A stretch of DNA of 20,391 nt from a virus: IMG/VR virus record IMGVR_UViG_3300023179_000618, positions 1 through 20,391 of that record. The stretch is one strand, 5' to 3'. Numbering within the stretch: the first letter of the stretch is position 1; every line of letters begins with the position of its first letter. The position numbers were made by a program, and so were the translations under genes. Below the pieces are notes generated by a model that saw only the letters and a list, made by a program, of their open reading frames with translations, was not told the DNA's origin and did not search any database. Positions 8,611 through 16,960 of this stretch are shown piece by piece.

Positions 8611-9975
8611 TCACGCTCCGAGGATTGCCTGCGTGATTGCTGCGGCAACCGGTGGGCTCACCGAGTTGCCGATCTGGCGGGTCACGTCGGCCTTTGACCC
8701 GCAGAACACGTAGTCCGGCCTGAACCCTTGGGCGGCCGACAACTCGTGATTCTGGAGCATGCGAAAGCCTACGTCGACAACCTGCAGCTCGCGGCAGGTC
8801 TGCACGAGACTGGCCATCGCCAGCCCGTGGCGGTCGCGGGTCGTGATTGTGTCGACCGGCTCTCCGACCGGTGAGACGTCGGACGTGCCGTAGTAGTGCA
8901 GCAAGAACGGCATCACCAGACACGAATCAGCTTTCGTTGTGATCGTCGCAACCGGCGTCGAAACGGATCTCTCTGGAGACTGACCAGCGCGACCGCCGCA
9001 GCCTGCGATGAAAGGCATCGCCAGCCCCCTTCCGTTGTGCGTGCTGACGGTCCCGATCGGCTCGCGAAGGTCGCAGGTTCTGCTGTCGGCACCGCCGTGA
9101 TTTACCTCGACTGTGAACGGCAGGGCCAAGCCGTGATGCTGGCCGCCTGCCGTAATCGTCCCCACCGGCTTGGCCATTTCTTCCGCGTCGCAATTGTTCC
9201 GCAACTGAACTTGGAACGGCCCCACGAACCGCCGCAACCCGGCTTCGATCCGGGCGATCGTCTTTGGGGCCAGCGGCCGCTTCCGGTTGAAGATCGACGG
9301 GCACGGGAGCGACCAGTCAACCACTTCGGCGGCCGCTCTCCATCGCGGCAGCCCCAGACCGGGCAGCTCACCGCCGGCATATCGCGTATGTGTCGGCTCA
9401 GGAAATAGCGGCATCCTATTGCCCTTCCGGGCCACCACGAACAGCCGATTGCGGGACGTCGCAGCGCCGAAGTCGGCCGCGTTCAATTGCCGCCAATCGA
9501 CGCGATATCCGGCCGCTTCGATTGCAGCAATCCACGCACGGAAAAACGCCCCACGCTTGCTGACCAGCGGTCGGCCGTCGTCTCCGATCGGCCCCCATTG
9601 CTCGAACTCGACGACATTCTCGACCACGACCCAAGACGGCCGATGGTGCTCGATCCAGCGCATCACGTCCCACGCCCCCGACCGTTGCTGGTCCGATGTC
9701 GGCCGGCCTCCGCGGGCTCGCGAATGGTGCGTGCACTCCGGCGAGGCGAACAGCAGGTCGATGCGCTCGCACTCGCCTGGGTTCACCTGGTCCAGTCGGC
9801 TGTTGACGTGGCGGGCGTCCGGGAAGTTGGCAGCGTGGGTTTGTACGGCCACCGACCAATGGTTGACCGCGAACCGAACCCTGGCGGCCCCCGTCGACTC
9901 GGCTCCGGCGGACGTCCCGCCAGCGCCACAGAAAAGATCACAGCAGTTGAGTTGCTTCACTGGTATTTTTCTCAC
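8611..9975 (-). CDS. DNA (cytosine-5-)-methyltransferase
   Basis: Methylates cytosine at carbon 5, probably protecting phage DNA from host restriction. Motifs in order: I, DLFCGAGG (13-20); IV, SPECTHHS (78-85) with catalytic Cys81; VI, ENV (119-121); VIII, QLNAADFGAATSRNRLFVV (163-181); X, QIGNSVSPPVA (434-444). Motif IV reads SPEC rather than the usual PPCQ. The recognition region contains four repeats of the type P-V-x-T-I-T-x(n)-G-L-A-M-P-F at about 270-287, 306-323, 341-359 and 373-389. Start is GTG 9975 with AGGA seven bases upstream. Length, 454 residues, is ordinary. No cognate restriction enzyme gene is seen nearby, so it looks like an orphan phage methyltransferase. Confidence 0.93.
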   Translation of the reverse strand: MRKIPVKQLNCCDLFCGAGGTSAGAESTGAARVRFAVNHWSVAVQTHAANFPDARHVNSRLDQVNPGECERIDLLFASPECTHHSRARGGRPTSDQQRSGAWDVMRWIEHHRPSWVVVENVVEFEQWGPIGDDGRPLVSKRGAFFRAWIAAIEAAGYRVDWRQLNAADFGAATSRNRLFVVARKGNRMPLFPEPTHTRYAGGELPGLGLPRWRAAAEVVDWSLPCPSIFNRKRPLAPKTIARIEAGLRRFVGPFQVQLRNNCDAEEMAKPVGTITAGGQHHGLALPFTVEVNHGGADSRTCDLREPIGTVSTHNGRGLAMPFIAGCGGRAGQSPERSVSTPVATITTKADSCLVMPFLLHYYGTSDVSPVGEPVDTITTRDRHGLAMASLVQTCRELQVVDVGFRMLQNHELSAAQGFRPDYVFCGSKADVTRQIGNSVSPPVAAAITQAILGA

Positions 9976-9984
9976 TTGAACATC

Positions 9985-10224
9985 CTATTCGGATCGGGGA
10001 CCGCGCAAACAATCTTCGCGCCCGGGAAGAGGATTCGACTGGCACCAATCCTCCGAAGACACACATTCCCACCAGCCGCCACGCCCCCAGCACACATCAC
10101 AGTCTAGGGTCTCATCCACGTCCGAGAACTCATCGTCGCAGCACCCTGTGCCACCGCAGTGGTCGCACTTGTGCCAGCCGCAAGCACAACCGCAACGGGC
10201 GCAGAGGATCGAATCATCGTCCAT
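9985..10224 (-). CDS. CxxC-rich mini-protein resembling the DnaJ zinc domain
   Basis: A 79-residue acidic protein with 13 cysteines, including CDHCGGTG and CDVCWGRG, close to the CxxCxGxG repeats that bind zinc in DnaJ. Only this type of domain is present; there is no J domain. The ATG at 10224 overlaps the end of the adenine methylase gene, with a G-rich ribosome-binding site nine bases ahead; an ATG at 10263 in the same frame is inside that gene and is less likely. Possibly a small chaperone-like or anti-host protein, unproven. Confidence 0.72.
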   Translation of the reverse strand: MDDDSILCARCGCACGWHKCDHCGGTGCCDDEFSDVDETLDCDVCWGRGGWWECVSSEDWCQSNPLPGREDCLRGPRSE

Positions 10225-11083
10225 CGAACATCCCCCCACCGGCGCGCGAGGGCCCGTTGACAATCAACACCTCTGGCTTGGCTTGGTTGGTTTGCGTCCG
10301 GCCTTCGACCGGGATCCAGGTCCATCGGACGCCATCCGGATACAGCTCGCGGATCAGCGGGTGGTCGCCGAATCGGATCACGACCCGCGCCCGCGAGAAC
10401 TCCGCCAGGCACGCTGCCAGTCGCCGATGGTCGGCTTCGGTGAAACCGTGGCGGTATTTGGCCCCATCGTCTGGCCAGGGGGCGTCGATGTAGATGCCAG
10501 TTTCCCGTGTGTCTGGGCAGTTTTGGAGGAACTCGAACGCGTCCATGGAGGTGAAGGAACACCGGCGCATAATCCGGCCCCACTCCACCAGACCTCGCAC
10601 GGCTGAGCGGTAACGGGTGTTGGAGTCGCCGCCATTCGCGTTCCAACGGGTGGACAGGCTGCCGCTGAATTCATCGCGGCAGCCGGCCTTGTGCGAGCGT
10701 CCCATCCAGCAGCACACGAAGTAGTGGTAAGCGGCGAGCGGGTCTCCGTGGTCCATGCACGCGGGAGCGTTGTCTCTGCACCAGCCCTGTGATTCTGACA
10801 GAATCTCCGGATGAAACGGCACTCTGGTCAGTCGCTTGAGCAGCTCGCGGCGCATCGCACCATCAGCGACCACACGAGCCAGGTTGATCACGTGGCGGTG
10901 CAGATCGTTGACCGCGATCGACCGGGCGTCGATCGCCGCCACTTCGCTCATTCCGCCGGCAAACGGCACGCCGACCCATTTGCAGCCGGCGAGCTCTTCG
11001 GCGACCAGCGGGGCAATCGTCCGGCCAGCGCCGAACCACGGGGCCAGGGCACGCACTGGCATTGAGTCTTTGTCGTCAGGCAT
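10214..11083 (-). CDS. D12-class DNA adenine methylase-like protein
   Basis: Transfers a methyl group from SAM to the N6 of adenine in DNA, if active. The SAM site looks like PFAGGMSEV (40-48), followed by VND (58-60). The catalytic tetrad position reads DAPW (200-203), where D12 enzymes normally have DPPY. The end EVLIVNGP (271-278) fits the family. The ATG at 11083 has GGAGG six bases ahead and overlaps the DUF5131 stop. With the cytosine methyltransferase it gives this phage two DNA modification enzymes. The altered tetrad leaves activity uncertain. Confidence 0.78.
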   Translation of the reverse strand: MPDDKDSMPVRALAPWFGAGRTIAPLVAEELAGCKWVGVPFAGGMSEVAAIDARSIAVNDLHRHVINLARVVADGAMRRELLKRLTRVPFHPEILSESQGWCRDNAPACMDHGDPLAAYHYFVCCWMGRSHKAGCRDEFSGSLSTRWNANGGDSNTRYRSAVRGLVEWGRIMRRCSFTSMDAFEFLQNCPDTRETGIYIDAPWPDDGAKYRHGFTEADHRRLAACLAEFSRARVVIRFGDHPLIRELYPDGVRWTWIPVEGRTQTNQAKPEVLIVNGPSRAGGGMFDGR

Positions 11084-12203
11084 TCCGCACCTCCGGGAAC
11101 TGCCTCACACGCAGGCCTACGGGCCACTCGGTCGGGTCGCCACCCTTGCGGTCTGTCAGCCCAAGAACGCTGAAGTTGCCGAATCCGTCACCGCAGAACT
11201 GGACCGGAGAGACAGGCCCAGTGTGCCCCGGCCACCGCTCTCCGTCTGGCAGCCTTGTCGATTGGCGGCTACCGAGCTGCTTCACGAACGCAGGCACACA
11301 GGCCGTTTTGCACTGAGAGACGAGATCCCGGATCCACTCCACGTCGCAGCATCTCGCATCCGGCCCGCTCTCGCCGCCGATGATCACCCAGTCCAAGACG
11401 CTGTCTAGGCACATGTCGCAGTACTGGCATTCCGATATCGATTCGCTGCACCGGCACTTGATCGCTTCGCCGAGGTCGACAGGCCCCAGCAGCGGCTCAG
11501 CAGACACGCCCAGCACGGGGCAGAGATCGCGGCACTTCAACAGCTCGGGAACCATAGCGTCGGCCGTCTTTTGGTCGCTGATCGACGTGAGCAGCCACAC
11601 GTTCGGGAAATGCCTGTGCTTGCCAAGAGTTCCCGGAACGCCGGCGTCTGGGAATCCGTTTTTGGGCCACATCCGCCGCACGTTCTCGGGCCGCTTGGTG
11701 ACATAGATCCAGTCTAGGTTCGGCGTTGCGTCGATCAGCCAGAACAGGCGGACGCGAACGTCGTCCAGAGTCAGCAATCGAACCATTCCTGGCTCAATGT
11801 TGTCGCGTTCAATCTCCAGCAACGCCCCTGGTCCATCCGCCGACATCGCGACGTATCTGTCTGGTTCCGGACTTGGCTGGCAATCGTGCACGTACAGTGT
11901 GCGCCCAGCCGAGTCCACCATTGGTCCCCGCCAGTCCTCGAACACGTCGGCCAGTGACGCACAGAACACCCGCCGCCGAACGCCATCCGCCGCCGCCTCC
12001 CGGTCCCACTTCAGCGGCTGCCGCCACTGGGCCTCGCTCGCAACGACTCGTGTGCCGTTTGGCCCCCAGACGCCAAGCACCGCCGGATTGCGTCGGGCCA
12101 GCGTTCTGGCGTAGCAGTTGTCACAGCCAGTGTGCACTTCCTGACAGCCGCGCCACGGGTTGAACGTGTGGTCGGTCCATTCGATCTTCGAATTTTTACC
12201 CAC
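11076..12203 (-). CDS. DUF5131 / phage Gp37-Gp68 family protein with CX6CX2C motif
   Basis: The N-terminus KNSKIEWTDHTFNPWRGC followed by HTGCDNCYA is diagnostic of the Gp37/Gp68 family. Cys20, Cys27 and Cys30 form a three-cysteine motif reminiscent of iron-sulfur sites in radical-SAM-like proteins; the function is not established. A second cluster of five cysteines at 250, 252, 259, 262 and 265 lies just before IIGGESG (about 274-280). Length is 375 residues. The start is GTG at 12203 because a near-perfect ribosome-binding site, GGAGGTGA, lies five bases upstream; the longer frame to 12218 would place that site inside the gene. It is next to the adenine methylase, a pairing that hints at a nucleic-acid-related role. 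Confidence 0.85.
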   Translation of the reverse strand: MGKNSKIEWTDHTFNPWRGCQEVHTGCDNCYARTLARRNPAVLGVWGPNGTRVVASEAQWRQPLKWDREAAADGVRRRVFCASLADVFEDWRGPMVDSAGRTLYVHDCQPSPEPDRYVAMSADGPGALLEIERDNIEPGMVRLLTLDDVRVRLFWLIDATPNLDWIYVTKRPENVRRMWPKNGFPDAGVPGTLGKHRHFPNVWLLTSISDQKTADAMVPELLKCRDLCPVLGVSAEPLLGPVDLGEAIKCRCSESISECQYCDMCLDSVLDWVIIGGESGPDARCCDVEWIRDLVSQCKTACVPAFVKQLGSRQSTRLPDGERWPGHTGPVSPVQFCGDGFGNFSVLGLTDRKGGDPTEWPVGLRVRQFPEVRNA

Positions 12204-12396
12204 AGGAATCACCTCCATTCAGTGCCCCAGAGTCCAACAAGTCCCCAAACGGCTTTCCGCGCGGATCGCCACTCGCCCACAGCAGCGCAGTCGCGACCAT
12301 CGCAAAATCTTGCGACTTCATTTGTCGGGCGAACTCCAGAACCACTTCAGCGGCCTGCAGCACGCGTTTCGTGTCGGGATTGTGTTTCTTGCTCAT
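12196..12396 (-). CDS. Small hypothetical protein
   Basis: A 66-residue soluble protein with a basic N-terminus and one amphipathic helix (residues 12-45). ATG at 12396 overlaps the RusA stop as ATGA, and its own stop overlaps the start of the DUF5131 gene, so it is coupled on both sides. Function unknown. Confidence 0.65.
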   Translation of the reverse strand: MSKKHNPDTKRVLQAAEVVLEFARQMKSQDFAMVATALLWASGDPRGKPFGDLLDSGALNGGDSCG

Positions 12397-12878
12397 GCTT
12401 CTTCTTCCACCTTGTAAACTTCGACCTTCACTCCTTGTCGTTCGGCGTAGCTCTTCTTGATCACGTGGATCACGATTCGGCTGTCGTCTCGGTAGACGAT
12501 CCCGGTCATCGCGTCCTCAACCCCCCGCAGAACCTTGCTGCTGTCGGGCTTGACCGTGCAGTGCTTTGGAGCGCTGGGCAGCAACCCCCGCTTTCCAAAA
12601 TGGCCCTTCGGCCGCAGCACTTCAATGGTCAGCACCAGTGCGACGGGCCCCTCGAACATCGGCGATGTCCCCATCGCCGCAAACGCCGCGGCCGACACCT
12701 GGTTCATCCAGTGCTTCGACTGCGGGTTGTCGTCGACTGTCGCCGTCAGGATGGACCCGTTCTGTCGCAGCACAGGCTGCCCGGTCGACCTGTTCCGGAT
12801 GGCGATGGACCGCTTTGAGCCGCGCGGCTGCGGCTTTCCGTGAACGTAGAATGCGGTGATCAGATCTTCAATCTGCAT
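12393..12878 (-). CDS. rusA: RusA-like Holliday junction resolvase
   Basis: Resolves four-way DNA junctions during phage recombination and replication. The start FYVHGKPQPRGSKR (10-23), the central HFGKRG (93-98) and KPDSSKVLRGVEDAMTG (110-126) followed by YRDD (129-132) match phage RusA proteins. Acidic candidates are Asp112, Asp122, Asp131 and Asp132. The position of the second Asp of the usual D-x-D pair is Ser114, so one catalytic acid may be missing. Start at ATG 12878 overlaps the previous stop as TGATG; a longer frame to 12989 is rejected. The 161-residue length is a little above E. coli RusA. The family call is fairly sure, the activity less so. Confidence 0.8.
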   Translation of the reverse strand: MQIEDLITAFYVHGKPQPRGSKRSIAIRNRSTGQPVLRQNGSILTATVDDNPQSKHWMNQVSAAAFAAMGTSPMFEGPVALVLTIEVLRPKGHFGKRGLLPSAPKHCTVKPDSSKVLRGVEDAMTGIVYRDDSRIVIHVIKKSYAERQGVKVEVYKVEEEA

Positions 12879-13117
12879 CACAGCCCCCTGTTCTGGGCGA
12901 GCCACTGTCGCTCTGCAGCAATCGCCTCGCACCGCAACTGGTACGGCCCGAGCACCGGCCCTCCAGACGGCCCCATGTCGGCGATCCACTCCCCGTCAGG
13001 CGTCGGTTCGACGTGCGACGCACGCACGATCTCCGCCGACCCGAGCTCTCGCAGGAATGCCATCTGGTCGTCCCAGACGAACTGCACTTTGCCGCCTGGT
13101 GTGATAGTGCAGGTCAT
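12878..13117 (-). CDS. Small conserved-looking phage protein
   Basis: A 79-residue protein with the pattern IVRASHVEP, then GEWIADMGPSGGPVLGP and a C-terminal helix RCEAIAAERQWL. I recall this layout from small phage and prophage proteins of unknown function, but cannot name a family. ATG at 13117 overlaps the upstream stop (ATGA). It is coupled to rusA downstream. Confidence 0.7.
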   Translation of the reverse strand: MTCTITPGGKVQFVWDDQMAFLRELGSAEIVRASHVEPTPDGEWIADMGPSGGPVLGPYQLRCEAIAAERQWLAQNRGL

Positions 13118-13347: not shown

Positions 13348-13492
13348 GATCTTCCGACTCAATTGTCTCCAGCCTGCAGTGCAGGACCTCCACCATCCGC
13401 AGCAGCAGATGGCACTGGATCCACAAAACAGCTACCGCCGACACCAGTGCCGCCAGCAGGAACCACTGGAAAAACAGCAGTTCAGGACTCAC
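13334..13492 (-). CDS. 52-aa single-pass membrane protein, too short for routine ORF calling
   Basis: The frame GTG 13492 to TGA 13334 fills what would otherwise be a gap between two genes. It encodes MSPELLFFQWFLLAALVSAV and continues hydrophobic to about residue 30, then a charged C-terminus ending DHEPQ. The GTG overlaps the DUF2997 stop as GTGA, like neighbouring junctions. That junction and the clear membrane helix support it as a real gene. No strong ribosome-binding site, so it may be coupled. Role unknown. Confidence 0.62.
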   Translation of the reverse strand: MSPELLFFQWFLLAALVSAVAVLWIQCHLLLRMVEVLHCRLETIESEDHEPQ

Positions 13493-13683
13493 TGTGCACC
13501 CGCCTTCGCCTGCGCCCCGAGCCCGGCGGCATGGTGGTACTCCGGCTTGCGGATGTTGTCTGTCGTGGTCCCGACAGCGGCCTCAATGGCCTTCGACAGG
13601 GCCTCGCAGCCCGATCCGACCACTCCCTTGGTCTCGACCCTCACGGCCCCGTCCGGTCCGATCGTGACTTCGACTGTCTTCAT
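13489..13683 (-). CDS. DUF2997-family protein
   Basis: A 64-residue protein. TVEVTIGPDGAVRVETKG followed by GSGCEALSKAIEAAVG fits DUF2997, a small family found beside DUF1257 (Ycf35) genes. The start is ATG 13683, four bases after the DUF1257 stop, with AGAAAGG upstream; the longer frame to 13728 is inside that gene. The single Cys in GSGC is the family position. Function is unknown; its fixed link to DUF1257 suggests a joint complex. Confidence 0.78.
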   Translation of the reverse strand: MKTVEVTIGPDGAVRVETKGVVGSGCEALSKAIEAAVGTTTDNIRKPEYHHAAGLGAQAKAGAQ

Positions 13684-13687
13684 CTGC

Positions 13688-14212
13688 TCAGCCTTTCTGA
13701 AACACGAGCCGAATGGAACCGTCCGCAAGCCGCTGCTCTTGGACCTGAAAGCCTTGCTGCTGGCCCGCTCGAATCGCGGCCACCCGGGCGTAGGACTGGG
13801 TCAGCTTCTGCCCTGCGTCGCCGACAAACTGCACCAGCGACGTCCGGCTCTTGTTGCCTGTCCAGTCAGTACGCCCCTCATCGGCGTCTAGACCGGTCGT
13901 GTAGTTGCATCGTCCGGAGTTCCAGTTGTCCCACAGTAGGACAAATCCGGGCTTCCCGTCGCGCCGACCGCAGACTCCGATCTCATAACAGCGATCGGCC
14001 CCATCCACCGACAGAGGGACTCGGATCGCGTGATCGCACGTCCCGAGTTCATCAGCCGCGAATCCCTGCGGCACGGGGTAGTCACCGACCGATCGGCCGT
14101 ACCAGCGATACGTTCGCTGGCCCCGGACGAGCTCCAGGCCAATCGATTTGGCCGCTGCCTCCAAGTCGTCCAGCGACTTGATTTCGACATTGATTGTCGC
14201 GACATGACTCAC
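13688..14212 (-). CDS. DUF1257 / Ycf35-like protein
   Basis: A 174-residue protein. The start SHVATINVEIKSLDDLEAA, the core CYEIGVCGRRDGKPGFVLLWD and the C-terminus LTQSYARVAAIRAGQQQGF then DGSIRLVF match DUF1257, known as Ycf35 in plastids and cyanobacteria. Function is not established. The GTG start at 14212 has GGGAGGA six bases upstream; the longer frame to 14281 would run through the promoter. Its own promoter and operator lie at 14241-14269, and DUF2997 follows after four bases. It carries an insertion relative to short family members between about residues 35 and 65. Confidence 0.83.
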   Translation of the reverse strand: MSHVATINVEIKSLDDLEAAAKSIGLELVRGQRTYRWYGRSVGDYPVPQGFAADELGTCDHAIRVPLSVDGADRCYEIGVCGRRDGKPGFVLLWDNWNSGRCNYTTGLDADEGRTDWTGNKSRTSLVQFVGDAGQKLTQSYARVAAIRAGQQQGFQVQEQRLADGSIRLVFQKG

Positions 14213-14240
14213 TGCAGTTCCTCCCGGGCACGAGATTGCA

Positions 14241-14269
14241 ATCATACACTTGTGTATCACATGCGTCAA
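14241..14269 (-). promoter_or_regulatory. Sigma-70-type promoter with perfect 14-bp operator
   Basis: TTGACG (14269-14264), 17 nt, TATGAT (14246-14241). The spacer holds ATACACTTGTGTAT (14244-14257), which is a palindrome except for the two central bases and overlaps the -10. The expected start of transcription is about 22 bases before the GTG of the DUF1257 gene. This is the best match to the shared operator. Confidence 0.85.
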
Positions 14270-14295
14270 AACTGACAGCACATGATTCTCGTCAC

Positions 14296-15285
14296 TCAGT
14301 CGTCCTCGAATGTGATCTTGCGGGTGGGTCGCTCCACGATCAGAGACTCCAACCGCGACTGCACTTCGGCCAGGCCGGTCGCCAGCTCAGCCCGGACATC
14401 GCCGGACTTGCGGACGTCGTTCGGGTCCTTCCCGGCCAGCAGCCCCATCGCTTGCGTGATCACGGCATCAAGCTGCTCCGAGCTGCCCACACTTACCTTG
14501 CGGAACCGCTCAAAAAACTCCCCAAAGTTCTCGATTGCCGAATCCCTGAACGTCTTCGGCTTCCCGTCATCGTCCCCACTGAGCCGCTCCGACAGGTGCG
14601 ACACCAACCGCTGCAGTTCTTCGGCGAATGCGGCCTCCATCGCAACCGCCGCCTGTTCGAACTGCGCCGCCACTTGGGCCTGCTGCCGCGCCCAGATGTC
14701 CGGGTGCAGTTCCTTCAGCATGTCGGGCGGCTCGATGGCTGGGTAATCCCAACTGAAGCCGAACTCCTGCGAGATCGTGGCGGGGTAGTCCTCCAGGTTC
14801 CAGAGCTCTCCCAGCGACTGCCGGGCATCGTCGCACAGCACCTGGTAGGCGTTGTCGAGCTCCTGCAATGCGACTCGCAGTTGCTCCCGGTAGTCACCCA
14901 TCTGCGCCTCGAACTCTTCGATCCGCGACTTGCGGATCAGCCGCACCCCCCGCACGGGGTACTCGACAGATGCCAGATTCCAGTATTGCCGGACCTTGCT
15001 GAGGATGCTGGTCACAGCCCGGTAGAGCTTGTGGTTCGTGTCCAGCAGCCTCTTCGACGCCTTGACCATCGTGGCTTCGGCGTCGAATTCCTCGGCGGCC
15101 CTCCGGGTGTGCTCCGACGTGAGCCTCTTGCTCGCGCCGAACCGGCGAATCGTCACCCGCACGCCGGCGGTGTTGGCCCGGAGTTCAGCCCCGAGGGAGT
15201 CCCCGGAGATGCTCCGGATCGGCCGCCAGGGCATCGCGCCGGAGGCGTATGGCGTGTAAGGCTCTTCAGTTGCTGCTGAGATCAT
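14296..15285 (-). CDS. 329-aa helical protein of unknown function linked to the AAA ATPase
   Basis: A soluble protein with little beta character after residue 60: long charged helices, including a coiled-coil-like stretch KRLLDTNHKLYRAVTSIL and FEQAAVAMEAAFAEELQRL. It starts MISAATEEPYTPY and ends in a acidic tail. ATG at 15285 overlaps the 61-aa gene stop (ATGA), so it is in the ATPase operon. I recognise no family. It could be the partner or client of the ATPase, which is inference from position only. Confidence 0.75.
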   Translation of the reverse strand: MISAATEEPYTPYASGAMPWRPIRSISGDSLGAELRANTAGVRVTIRRFGASKRLTSEHTRRAAEEFDAEATMVKASKRLLDTNHKLYRAVTSILSKVRQYWNLASVEYPVRGVRLIRKSRIEEFEAQMGDYREQLRVALQELDNAYQVLCDDARQSLGELWNLEDYPATISQEFGFSWDYPAIEPPDMLKELHPDIWARQQAQVAAQFEQAAVAMEAAFAEELQRLVSHLSERLSGDDDGKPKTFRDSAIENFGEFFERFRKVSVGSSEQLDAVITQAMGLLAGKDPNDVRKSGDVRAELATGLAEVQSRLESLIVERPTRKITFEDD

Positions 15286-15467
15286 GCTGTTCCTTTGATT
15301 GAACTGGAGAGCCTTTCGATTTCGGTGTACACCCGAAAAAACGCCTCATCGTCGTAGGCTTCGGAATGTCCTTGGCTCCTTCGGGATTCGTTCTTGACCT
15401 TCATCATTTCGATCAGTGCGTTTTGCGCACAGATCAGCCCCCAGACCTTCAGGTTGTGTGGCGACAT
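15282..15467 (-). CDS. Small hypothetical protein in the AAA operon
   Basis: A 61-residue protein, mostly charged helix. ATG at 15467 shares a base with the ATPase stop (TGATG), with GGAG nearby; GTG 15470 is one codon upstream. The C-terminus is coupled to the 329-aa gene. Function unknown. Confidence 0.65.
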   Translation of the reverse strand: MSPHNLKVWGLICAQNALIEMMKVKNESRRSQGHSEAYDDEAFFRVYTEIERLSSSIKGTA

Positions 15468-16960
15468 CACTCCACCTCGATCTTTCTGCCGCTCACAGCG
15501 GCTGGTTTGCGTTCCCTCTCGTACACGCCAGGGTAGCTGGCCGACAGGAACTTCCCGCTGGCCGCCTCCCGCAACCGGGCGAGCCGATCAGCAGCCGATC
15601 GCGAGACCGGCACAACGAACTCCGCAGCCTCACTGACGGGGCAGCCCAGGCGGTAGGCGATCTCGCAGCACTGGCGGATCTCAGCCCCGGTCCACCCATC
15701 GTCGTTTGGCAGCAATTCCGCAAGCTCTGGCGTCAGGTCGCATGCGTAGATTCCGTATCGTTGCAGCCAGATCTCCCAGATTTTGACTCGCTCTTTTTCG
15801 TTCGGCAGATCGAAGAAGAACGTCCCGAGCGTGAACCGTCGACGCAGTTCGGGGGGGAGCTCCGCGATGCTGTTGCAGGTCGCAATCCACAGCGACCGGG
15901 AGTTGCTCACGGCGGTCACCACCTTCAGGGCCTGCCGGAGTTGCTGCTCCGACTGCCCGACCAGCGAGCCTTTCGCGGCTCCCAGGTCGAGCTGGATCGT
16001 GGGGATCCGGCCCTCAGCCCCAGCGGCTTTCGCGACCGCGGATTTGGCGGCCCCGGGGGGCCCCACGAAGATCATGCCGGCGGCCTCTTTGTCCTGCATG
16101 TACGAGAGCAGGCAACCGAGCTGATCCTGCGAGACGCCCGAGGTGTCACCGCTCCCGCCCAGGGCCTTTTCGATCTCGTCCACGAAGACGACTGCGTTTG
16201 GGCGAGATTGGCCGTGCATGATTCTGGACAGGAAGCTCTTGACGACTTCACACCCGCCGATCTGGCGAAAGTCGTCCCCGCCCTGCCAGACCTTAAGACC
16301 GGGGGTCTGCTCCACCTGCTGGCGCTTCCGCTGCCAGAGCCCCGTCAGGTCGACACCCTCTCGCGTCAGGCACATCGCCGTAACCTGTTCCGCCGCAAAC
16401 GCCGACAGCCCTCGGAGCGCATCAATTGCCTGGTCGACGACTTCTTCGTCCGGCTCGACGCCGGCGTTCGCGTACTGCTGCAAGATGATCTTGGCGATCT
16501 CCTGCGTCGACGGGAGCGGCTCATCGAAGACAACGACGTCTTCGGACAACTCAGCCGGCAGCGTGATCGACGGCCCCAGCATGACCAGCATCCGGCCGTC
16601 GGCCTTGAAGGCGTCCCGCAGGTTCCAGACGCCTTGCACAAGCGTCGGGTCGCCGATCCACCGGCCGGCGAGGTGCATCAGCACCACAGCCCCGCCAGGG
16701 GCCTTGAGACCCACCCCGCACAGGTTCAGCGGGTTGCCAACCGTGGGGTCGTAATCCCCACGGTTGGCGTTCCACCAATCCTCGCTTGTTTTGCCGTGCG
16801 GGCGTATCCCCCGCACAATGTCCCACTCCAGCTTGACAGCCGTCCCGTTGATTCCGGCGCACAGGCCGGCGACCGTGGCCCCTGCGTCGCTGGTGTTGAT
16901 CGCCACCAGCGGCACGCCCGCACGGCGGGCGTTCTTGACTTGCTTGACGATCTCCGACAT
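15467..16960 (-). CDS. Ycf46-like AAA+ ATPase with permuted core (Walker B before Walker A)
   Basis: The N-terminal domain (about 1-215) resembles Ycf46: VPLVAINTSD (16-25), KLEWDIVRGI (43-52), and LPAELSEDVVVFDEPLP (134-150). The ATPase core is out of the usual order. IGGCEVVKSFL (234-244) leads directly to VVFVDEIEKALGG (257-269), a Walker B with Asp261-Glu262. The P-loop GPPGAAKS (300-307) comes after it, then LDLGAAKGSLVGQSE (324-338), sensor 1 LWIATCN (357-363), the arginine-finger region ELRRRF (371-376) and a sensor-2 region GWTGAE (422-427). In ordinary AAA+ proteins the P-loop precedes Walker B. All catalytic pieces are present. The 497-residue length is similar to Ycf46. ATG 16960 follows a long structured leader and its own promoter. 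Confidence 0.88.
   Translation of the reverse strand: MSEIVKQVKNARRAGVPLVAINTSDAGATVAGLCAGINGTAVKLEWDIVRGIRPHGKTSEDWWNANRGDYDPTVGNPLNLCGVGLKAPGGAVVLMHLAGRWIGDPTLVQGVWNLRDAFKADGRMLVMLGPSITLPAELSEDVVVFDEPLPSTQEIAKIILQQYANAGVEPDEEVVDQAIDALRGLSAFAAEQVTAMCLTREGVDLTGLWQRKRQQVEQTPGLKVWQGGDDFRQIGGCEVVKSFLSRIMHGQSRPNAVVFVDEIEKALGGSGDTSGVSQDQLGCLLSYMQDKEAAGMIFVGPPGAAKSAVAKAAGAEGRIPTIQLDLGAAKGSLVGQSEQQLRQALKVVTAVSNSRSLWIATCNSIAELPPELRRRFTLGTFFFDLPNEKERVKIWEIWLQRYGIYACDLTPELAELLPNDDGWTGAEIRQCCEIAYRLGCPVSEAAEFVVPVSRSAADRLARLREAASGKFLSASYPGVYERERKPAAVSGRKIEVE

Follow-up and report, generated by a model that had tools for sequence, protein, structure and literature searches.

Walker B precedes Walker A in a family of phage AAA+ ATPases with two exchanged blocks

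A gene on a metagenomic virus contig encodes an AAA+ ATPase in which the Walker B segment lies ahead of the P-loop. This order results from an internal exchange of two adjacent blocks that leaves the ends of the chain unmoved, and not from an end-to-end circular permutation. The window, by which we mean the whole stretch of DNA that was analysed, spans the 20,391 bases of a virus record. Among its genes are those for a portal, for head morphogenesis and for a terminase-like function, as well as genes for a DnaC-like helicase loader, a replisome organiser, RusA and methylases. The ATPase gene is a two-module ORF of 497 amino acids at positions 15467..16960, on the minus strand (16960..15467). 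The original prediction, made from the sequence alone, had claimed that Walker B (residues 257-269) precedes the P-loop GPPGAAKS (residues 300-307), with sensor 1 after both. It gave no strand, but the claim held, with coordinates and residue positions exact.

Along the chain, the motifs run from Walker B through Walker A and sensor 1 to the arginine fingers, and the canonical AAA+ order of Walker A, Walker B and sensor 1 is not met. All features given here lie on the minus strand. The N-terminal module (residues 1-210, 16331..16960) is AAA-like without a P-loop and aligns with D1 of p97/Cdc48. The displaced block B (residues 256-292, 16085..16195) consists of beta3 with Walker B (strand 256-260), followed by alpha3 (helix 275-290), and corresponds to positions 315-355 of a profile of canonical relatives. 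Within this block, Walker B (VVFVDEIE, residues 257-264 with D261 and E262, 16169..16192), assigned by its conservation in permuted representatives, opens the segment VVFVDEIEKALGG (residues 257-269). Block A (residues 293-352, 15905..16084) carries beta1, the P-loop, alpha1, beta2, pore loop 1 and alpha2, as judged from predicted secondary structure and the profile match, and includes Walker A (GPPGAAKS, residues 300-307 with K306, 16040..16063). Sensor 1 is found on beta4 (IATCN, residues 359-363, of which ATCN is 360-363; 15872..15886), and the arginine fingers (RRR, residues 373-375 within RRRF, 373-376) are at 15836..15844.

The exchange is no chance pattern and was shown by profile alignment. 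A canonical profile HMM made from eight canonical-order relatives matched the window ATPase in an N block (residues 90-254 to hmm 81-248), a Walker B block (256-292 to hmm 315-355, i-E 1e-6), a Walker A block (290-352 to hmm 251-313, i-E 2e-17) and a C block (354-489 to hmm 356-484, i-E 2e-33). The same four-block order (hmm 1-245, 315-355, 251-313, 356-490) was present in 43/43 proteins of the permuted set, i.e., the window ATPase and 42 relatives; their chains read N, beta3-alpha3 with Walker B, beta1-alpha1-beta2-alpha2 with Walker A, and beta4-lid. The breakpoints fall between secondary-structure elements, and only about three residues are left at the canonical Walker B site, between the end of alpha2 (352) and the start of beta4 (356). 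The further claim that the block from Walker B to CLLSYMQDK had moved ahead of the P-loop held both in this alignment and in the element order of two AlphaFold models.

Standard profiles are interrupted in a similar manner. Pfam AAA (PF00004) matched the window ATPase in two stretches (1.2e-12, 48.9 bits against a cut-off of 21.2), and PHROG 8638, which is collinear with canonical relatives in one stretch, matched permuted proteins in 3-4 stretches. In the window ATPase (6.2e-56) there were four, spanning the N-terminal and catalytic modules, and likewise four in gp103, the ATPase of phage Tunturi_3 (7.8e-40). As collinear profile methods split or under-score permuted proteins, other rewired NTPases may hide in metagenomes. 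We determined motif order in 242 loci that were gathered mostly by alignment-based searches, yielding 168 permuted and 65 canonical proteins (233 classifiable). No intermediate with a duplicated block (A-B-A-B or B-A-B) was found among these 233. Single-sequence searches of viral contigs returned at most the near-identical L001 and otherwise nothing, and the wider family was reached only with alignments as queries. One scan confirmed at least 427 relatives, for only part of which motif order was checked.

Next, we focused on how the rearranged chain may fold. The AlphaFold model of the window ATPase (pLDDT 87.8) contains the elements E256-260, H275-290, E294-299, H306-317, E321-324, H336-352 and E356-362, and the model of a canonical relative (pLDDT 88.9) contains the same strands and helices in the normal order. 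On the same solved chains, 24-40 fewer residues were aligned for the permuted than for the canonical model, at similar rmsd (6bmf_B, 218 vs 257; 6g2v, 202 vs 234; 3cf0_A, 211 vs 247; 5uie_B, 209 vs 249). As would be expected of a sequential aligner, this deficit roughly equals the length of the displaced block, which by hmm match is 37 residues. Within the permuted family (~94 effective sequences), covariation between beta1 and beta4 was the strongest of ten strand pairs (a score attained by a fraction of 0.002 of randomly chosen window pairs), that between beta3 and beta4 came second, only at the 7% level (0.07), and alpha2-alpha3 pairs were among the top couplings. This favours the usual beta1-beta4-beta3 sheet, as the canonical 5-1-4-3-2 arrangement predicts, and lends support without being decisive. 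The suggestion in the original prediction that the fold could be rebuilt with altered connectivity is supported by the predicted elements and the covariation, with placement unmeasured. We infer from the same evidence, without a measured distance between D261/E262 and K306, that the fold has probably been rebuilt with rewired loops.

A VIA alignment of residues 1-492 of the window ATPase to p97 209-775 (Z 18.4, rmsd 6.4, 413 aligned) places both modules on a classical double-module AAA protein. Residues 1-210 of the window ATPase and of a canonical relative (L078) both align with p97 D1, with the P-loop absent. Structural alignment thus suggests that the N-terminal module of both forms is a degenerate AAA-like module without a P-loop. 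The explanation that we consider likely is a classical (p97/Vps4-like) AAA+ ATPase with this degenerate N-terminal module and one catalytic module of rewired connectivity. The beta3-alpha3 unit with Walker B would have been relocated from between alpha2 and beta4 to ahead of beta1, giving the order beta3-alpha3-beta1-alpha1-beta2-alpha2-beta4-alpha4-beta5, and the usual 5-1-4-3-2 parallel sheet would be rebuilt from it. In the canonical sheet, the parallel strands start from one edge, and all three reconnection points (alpha0-beta3, alpha3-beta1 and alpha2-beta4) are located there. Each loop thus has to reach no further than a nearby strand, which can leave the active site intact.

The claim that all catalytic residues remain held in 108 dereplicated permuted representatives. 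Walker A Lys and Ser/Thr, Walker B Glu and sensor-1 Asn were each found in 108/108, Walker B Asp in 106/108, and Arg at the aligned arginine-finger column in 103/108. Immediately ahead of the Walker A Lys, at residue 305 in the window ATPase, the usual Gly gives way to Ala in 56/108 permuted vs 0/43 canonical representatives, and the arginine-finger loop is shorter than in canonical relatives. The pattern GxxGxAK[ST] is found in active MCM and MoxR/RavA proteins. The window gene differs from L001 at 81 of 1,494 bases with a dN/dS of 0.08, which shows that it is under purifying selection. Membership of the AAA+ group is backed by motifs and homology and the chain order departs from it, while ATP hydrolysis and ring assembly are inferred only.

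Among the alternatives, domain swapping accepts that the block swap is real and proposes that beta3-alpha3 completes the sheet of the neighbouring subunit, which would place the active sites between chains. In favour of this, the block forms a unit of its own, flanked by a linker at either end, and AAA+ rings hold neighbouring modules close. However, the monomer is predicted with confidence (pLDDT ~91-93 over residues 291-320 and 92 over 351-360) and the linkers are short, and we regard domain swapping as very unlikely. Covariation cannot tell cis from trans placement of block 256-292. A second alternative is that the protein is a pseudo-ATPase, in which VVFVDEIE is not a working Walker B and a nucleotide-binding scaffold that has lost the normal fold is kept for its partners. 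The Gly-to-Ala change in 56/108 members and the shortened arginine-finger loop would fit this. However, a relic is expected to lose its catalytic residues, whereas all 108 diverse members have kept the Walker A Lys, Walker B Glu and sensor-1 Asn. The original prediction would have been refuted if VVFVDE were not the Walker B strand or if another acidic pair after the P-loop filled that role. Neither is the case, as residues 256-260 are predicted to form a beta strand that runs up to the DE pair, and no alternative pair is present at the Walker B site after the P-loop. We therefore hold a pseudo-ATPase to be highly improbable as well. An assembly, gene-model or frame artefact, conceivable for a window that is a 20-kb piece of a virus contig from a metagenome, is all but excluded, because the order recurs in the 43/43 set, in 168 of the 233 classifiable proteins from many independent assemblies and in the complete genome of an isolated phage, and the gene is a single uninterrupted frame under purifying selection.

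The rewired module is carried by IMG/VR phages, one isolated phage (Tunturiibacter phage Tunturi_3, PP885686, complete genome) and metagenome-assembled genomes (MAGs) of Acidobacteriota and other phyla. The permuted ATPases form a large AAA+ branch, apparently undescribed, that is found in phages and in mobile elements of bacteria from soil and water. To place them, we created a phylogeny with permuted and canonical forms mapped onto the same profile columns. The 108 dereplicated permuted proteins formed one clade (support 0.98), which was again monophyletic when only the unmoved blocks were used (0.82); with single unmoved blocks, the support was weak (0.42-0.60). With plasmid relatives from cyanobacteria and actinobacteria as the root, a group of Planctomycetes and large phages was sister to the permuted clade. 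The original prediction had proposed a phylogeny of this motif order, which proves to characterise a whole clade of likely single origin. Permuted proteins share a median identity of 46% with one another, with a minimum of 27%, and of 35% with canonical forms, and the swap event is therefore old. As one example of a route, the beta1-to-alpha3 segment may have been duplicated in tandem and its outer copies then lost (A-B-A-B to B-A), a course that would leave just such an exchange of neighbours.

Some genomes contain more than one copy. The planctomycete MAG G006, the genome of L083 (contigs C180, C88 and C327), has a permuted copy and, in addition, ORFs whose match to the permuted profile is confined to the unmoved blocks, which is what canonical-order paralogues would show. 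Several acidobacterial MAGs hold two or more permuted copies, including L104 and L110 on the same 301-kb contig and copies in other Bryobacterales MAGs. In seven MAGs, no terminase matches were found on the contigs that carry the permuted copies, and the terminases sit on other contigs. This suggests that these copies, considered as possible prophage genes, may sit on non-phage mobile elements.

The closest known proteins are the canonical-order relatives (PHROG 8638 type) from Planctomycetes, large phages, and Candidatus Manganitrophus and Thermovibrio plasmids. They share the two-module architecture, the kinds of partner (DUF1257, DUF2997 and DUF3150) and all catalytic motifs with the permuted proteins, but place Walker A ahead of Walker B; cyanobacterial plasmid relatives also match the canonical profile. 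The likeness to Ycf46 that had been claimed received only indirect support. The best viral structural neighbours are named ycf46 (Foldseek 6.5e-27 to 8.3e-19), including a Pseudomonas phage SM1 protein (BFVD A0A0U3CC34), and a DUF1257 (Ycf35) gene is nearby, but identity to these phage proteins is only 13-19%. The likeness rests on these two observations, with no comparison to plastid or chromosomal Ycf46 behind it, and no permuted Ycf46 form is described in the open-access literature searched. Classical AAA proteins (p97/Cdc48, Vps4, fidgetin and spastin) resemble the catalytic module or the double-module architecture (Z 16-18) and share Walker A, Walker B, sensor 1 and the arginine fingers. 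They differ in their canonical beta1-beta2-beta3-beta4 order, and the N-terminal module of p97, unlike that of the window ATPase, has a P-loop. A weak NCBIfam match to the anti-phage ATPase IteA (3.9e-7, 29.6 bits against a cut-off of 510), covering part of the AAA module only, was rejected.

AAA+ modules are found throughout life, and the order of their chain has been treated as fixed. Natural permutation of a P-loop NTPase with the active site kept is documented for GTPases (YjeQ/RsgA, YqeH and YlqF; cpRAS, PMC2430557). These are G domains with an end-to-end circular permutation, whereas the window ATPase is an AAA protein with an internal two-block swap and its ends in place. In agreement with the original prediction, which knew of no formal description, we found no naturally permuted AAA+ core in the open-access literature searched, although absence there is not proof. 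Permutation is mentioned elsewhere in that literature for DNA methylases, HUH enzymes, a peptidase and Rossmann folds, and an article that carries both terms (PMC5095350) concerns engineered AAA+ proteases. A bolder reading, towards which we lean slightly, is that the core described here is the first AAA+ example of natural permutation, in which a single ancient swap gave rise to an active and widespread lineage of ring ATPases with unchanged partners and, presumably, function; its activity is inferred. If true, this would be a new chain topology in one of the most conserved motor folds in biology. A block swap with the catalytic residues kept is a natural experiment on the limits of rewiring a universal motor fold, and a natural clade next to canonical-order relatives with the same motifs and partners makes it possible to compare folding, ring assembly and catalysis directly between the two forms.

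In the window, the ATPase gene is followed downstream by a set of minus-strand genes. A 62-aa ORF of unknown function (15282..15470), supported by the reading frame only and without homologues found in other loci, separates it from a gene for a DUF3150-like helical partner of 329 aa (14296..15285). The Pfam DUF3150 profile did not match this protein directly, and the link is supplied by an iterated profile reaching the annotated DUF3150 of L243. Further along are genes for a DUF1257 (Ycf35) family protein (13688..14281; PF06868, 7.8e-6), a DUF2997 protein (13489..13683; PF11211, 4.4e-15) and an operon protein of ~80 aa (12878..13117). The latter was assigned by eye to the GSHVEP family, which occurs in 20 permuted and 7 canonical loci, and had no PHROG match. 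In dereplicated loci, a DUF3150-like gene was found in 99/108 permuted vs 32/36 canonical, DUF2997 in 65/108 vs 31/36 and DUF1257 in 50/108 vs 30/36. Partner genes always share the strand of the ATPase in both forms, and canonical relatives on plasmids have the whole or part of the DUF3150/DUF1257/DUF2997 set. As the operon is common to both forms, the permuted proteins look orthologue-like and belong to the same functional setting rather than to a new system. Together with the DUF3150-like, DUF1257 and DUF2997 proteins, the ATPase would assemble into a ring that uses ATP to remodel a substrate of protein or nucleoprotein. That such a remodeller serves replication or maintenance of phages or other mobile elements could as well be wrong as right, as no characterised family member was found in the open-access literature searched. 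Enzyme activity, oligomeric state, substrate and biological role of the permuted ATPase are likewise inferred and not shown, no biochemistry being available, and the same literature yielded nothing on DUF3150 with AAA in phages.

A gene resembling a 4Fe-4S single-cluster or radical-SAM activase lies near the operon in both forms, including on plasmids L245 and L247. It was named by eye from sequence at L096:14479-15078 and in 13 further permuted loci. The window also contains another minus-strand group (8614-12218), which encodes a C-5 cytosine methylase, a D12-type adenine methylase and a DUF5131 protein.
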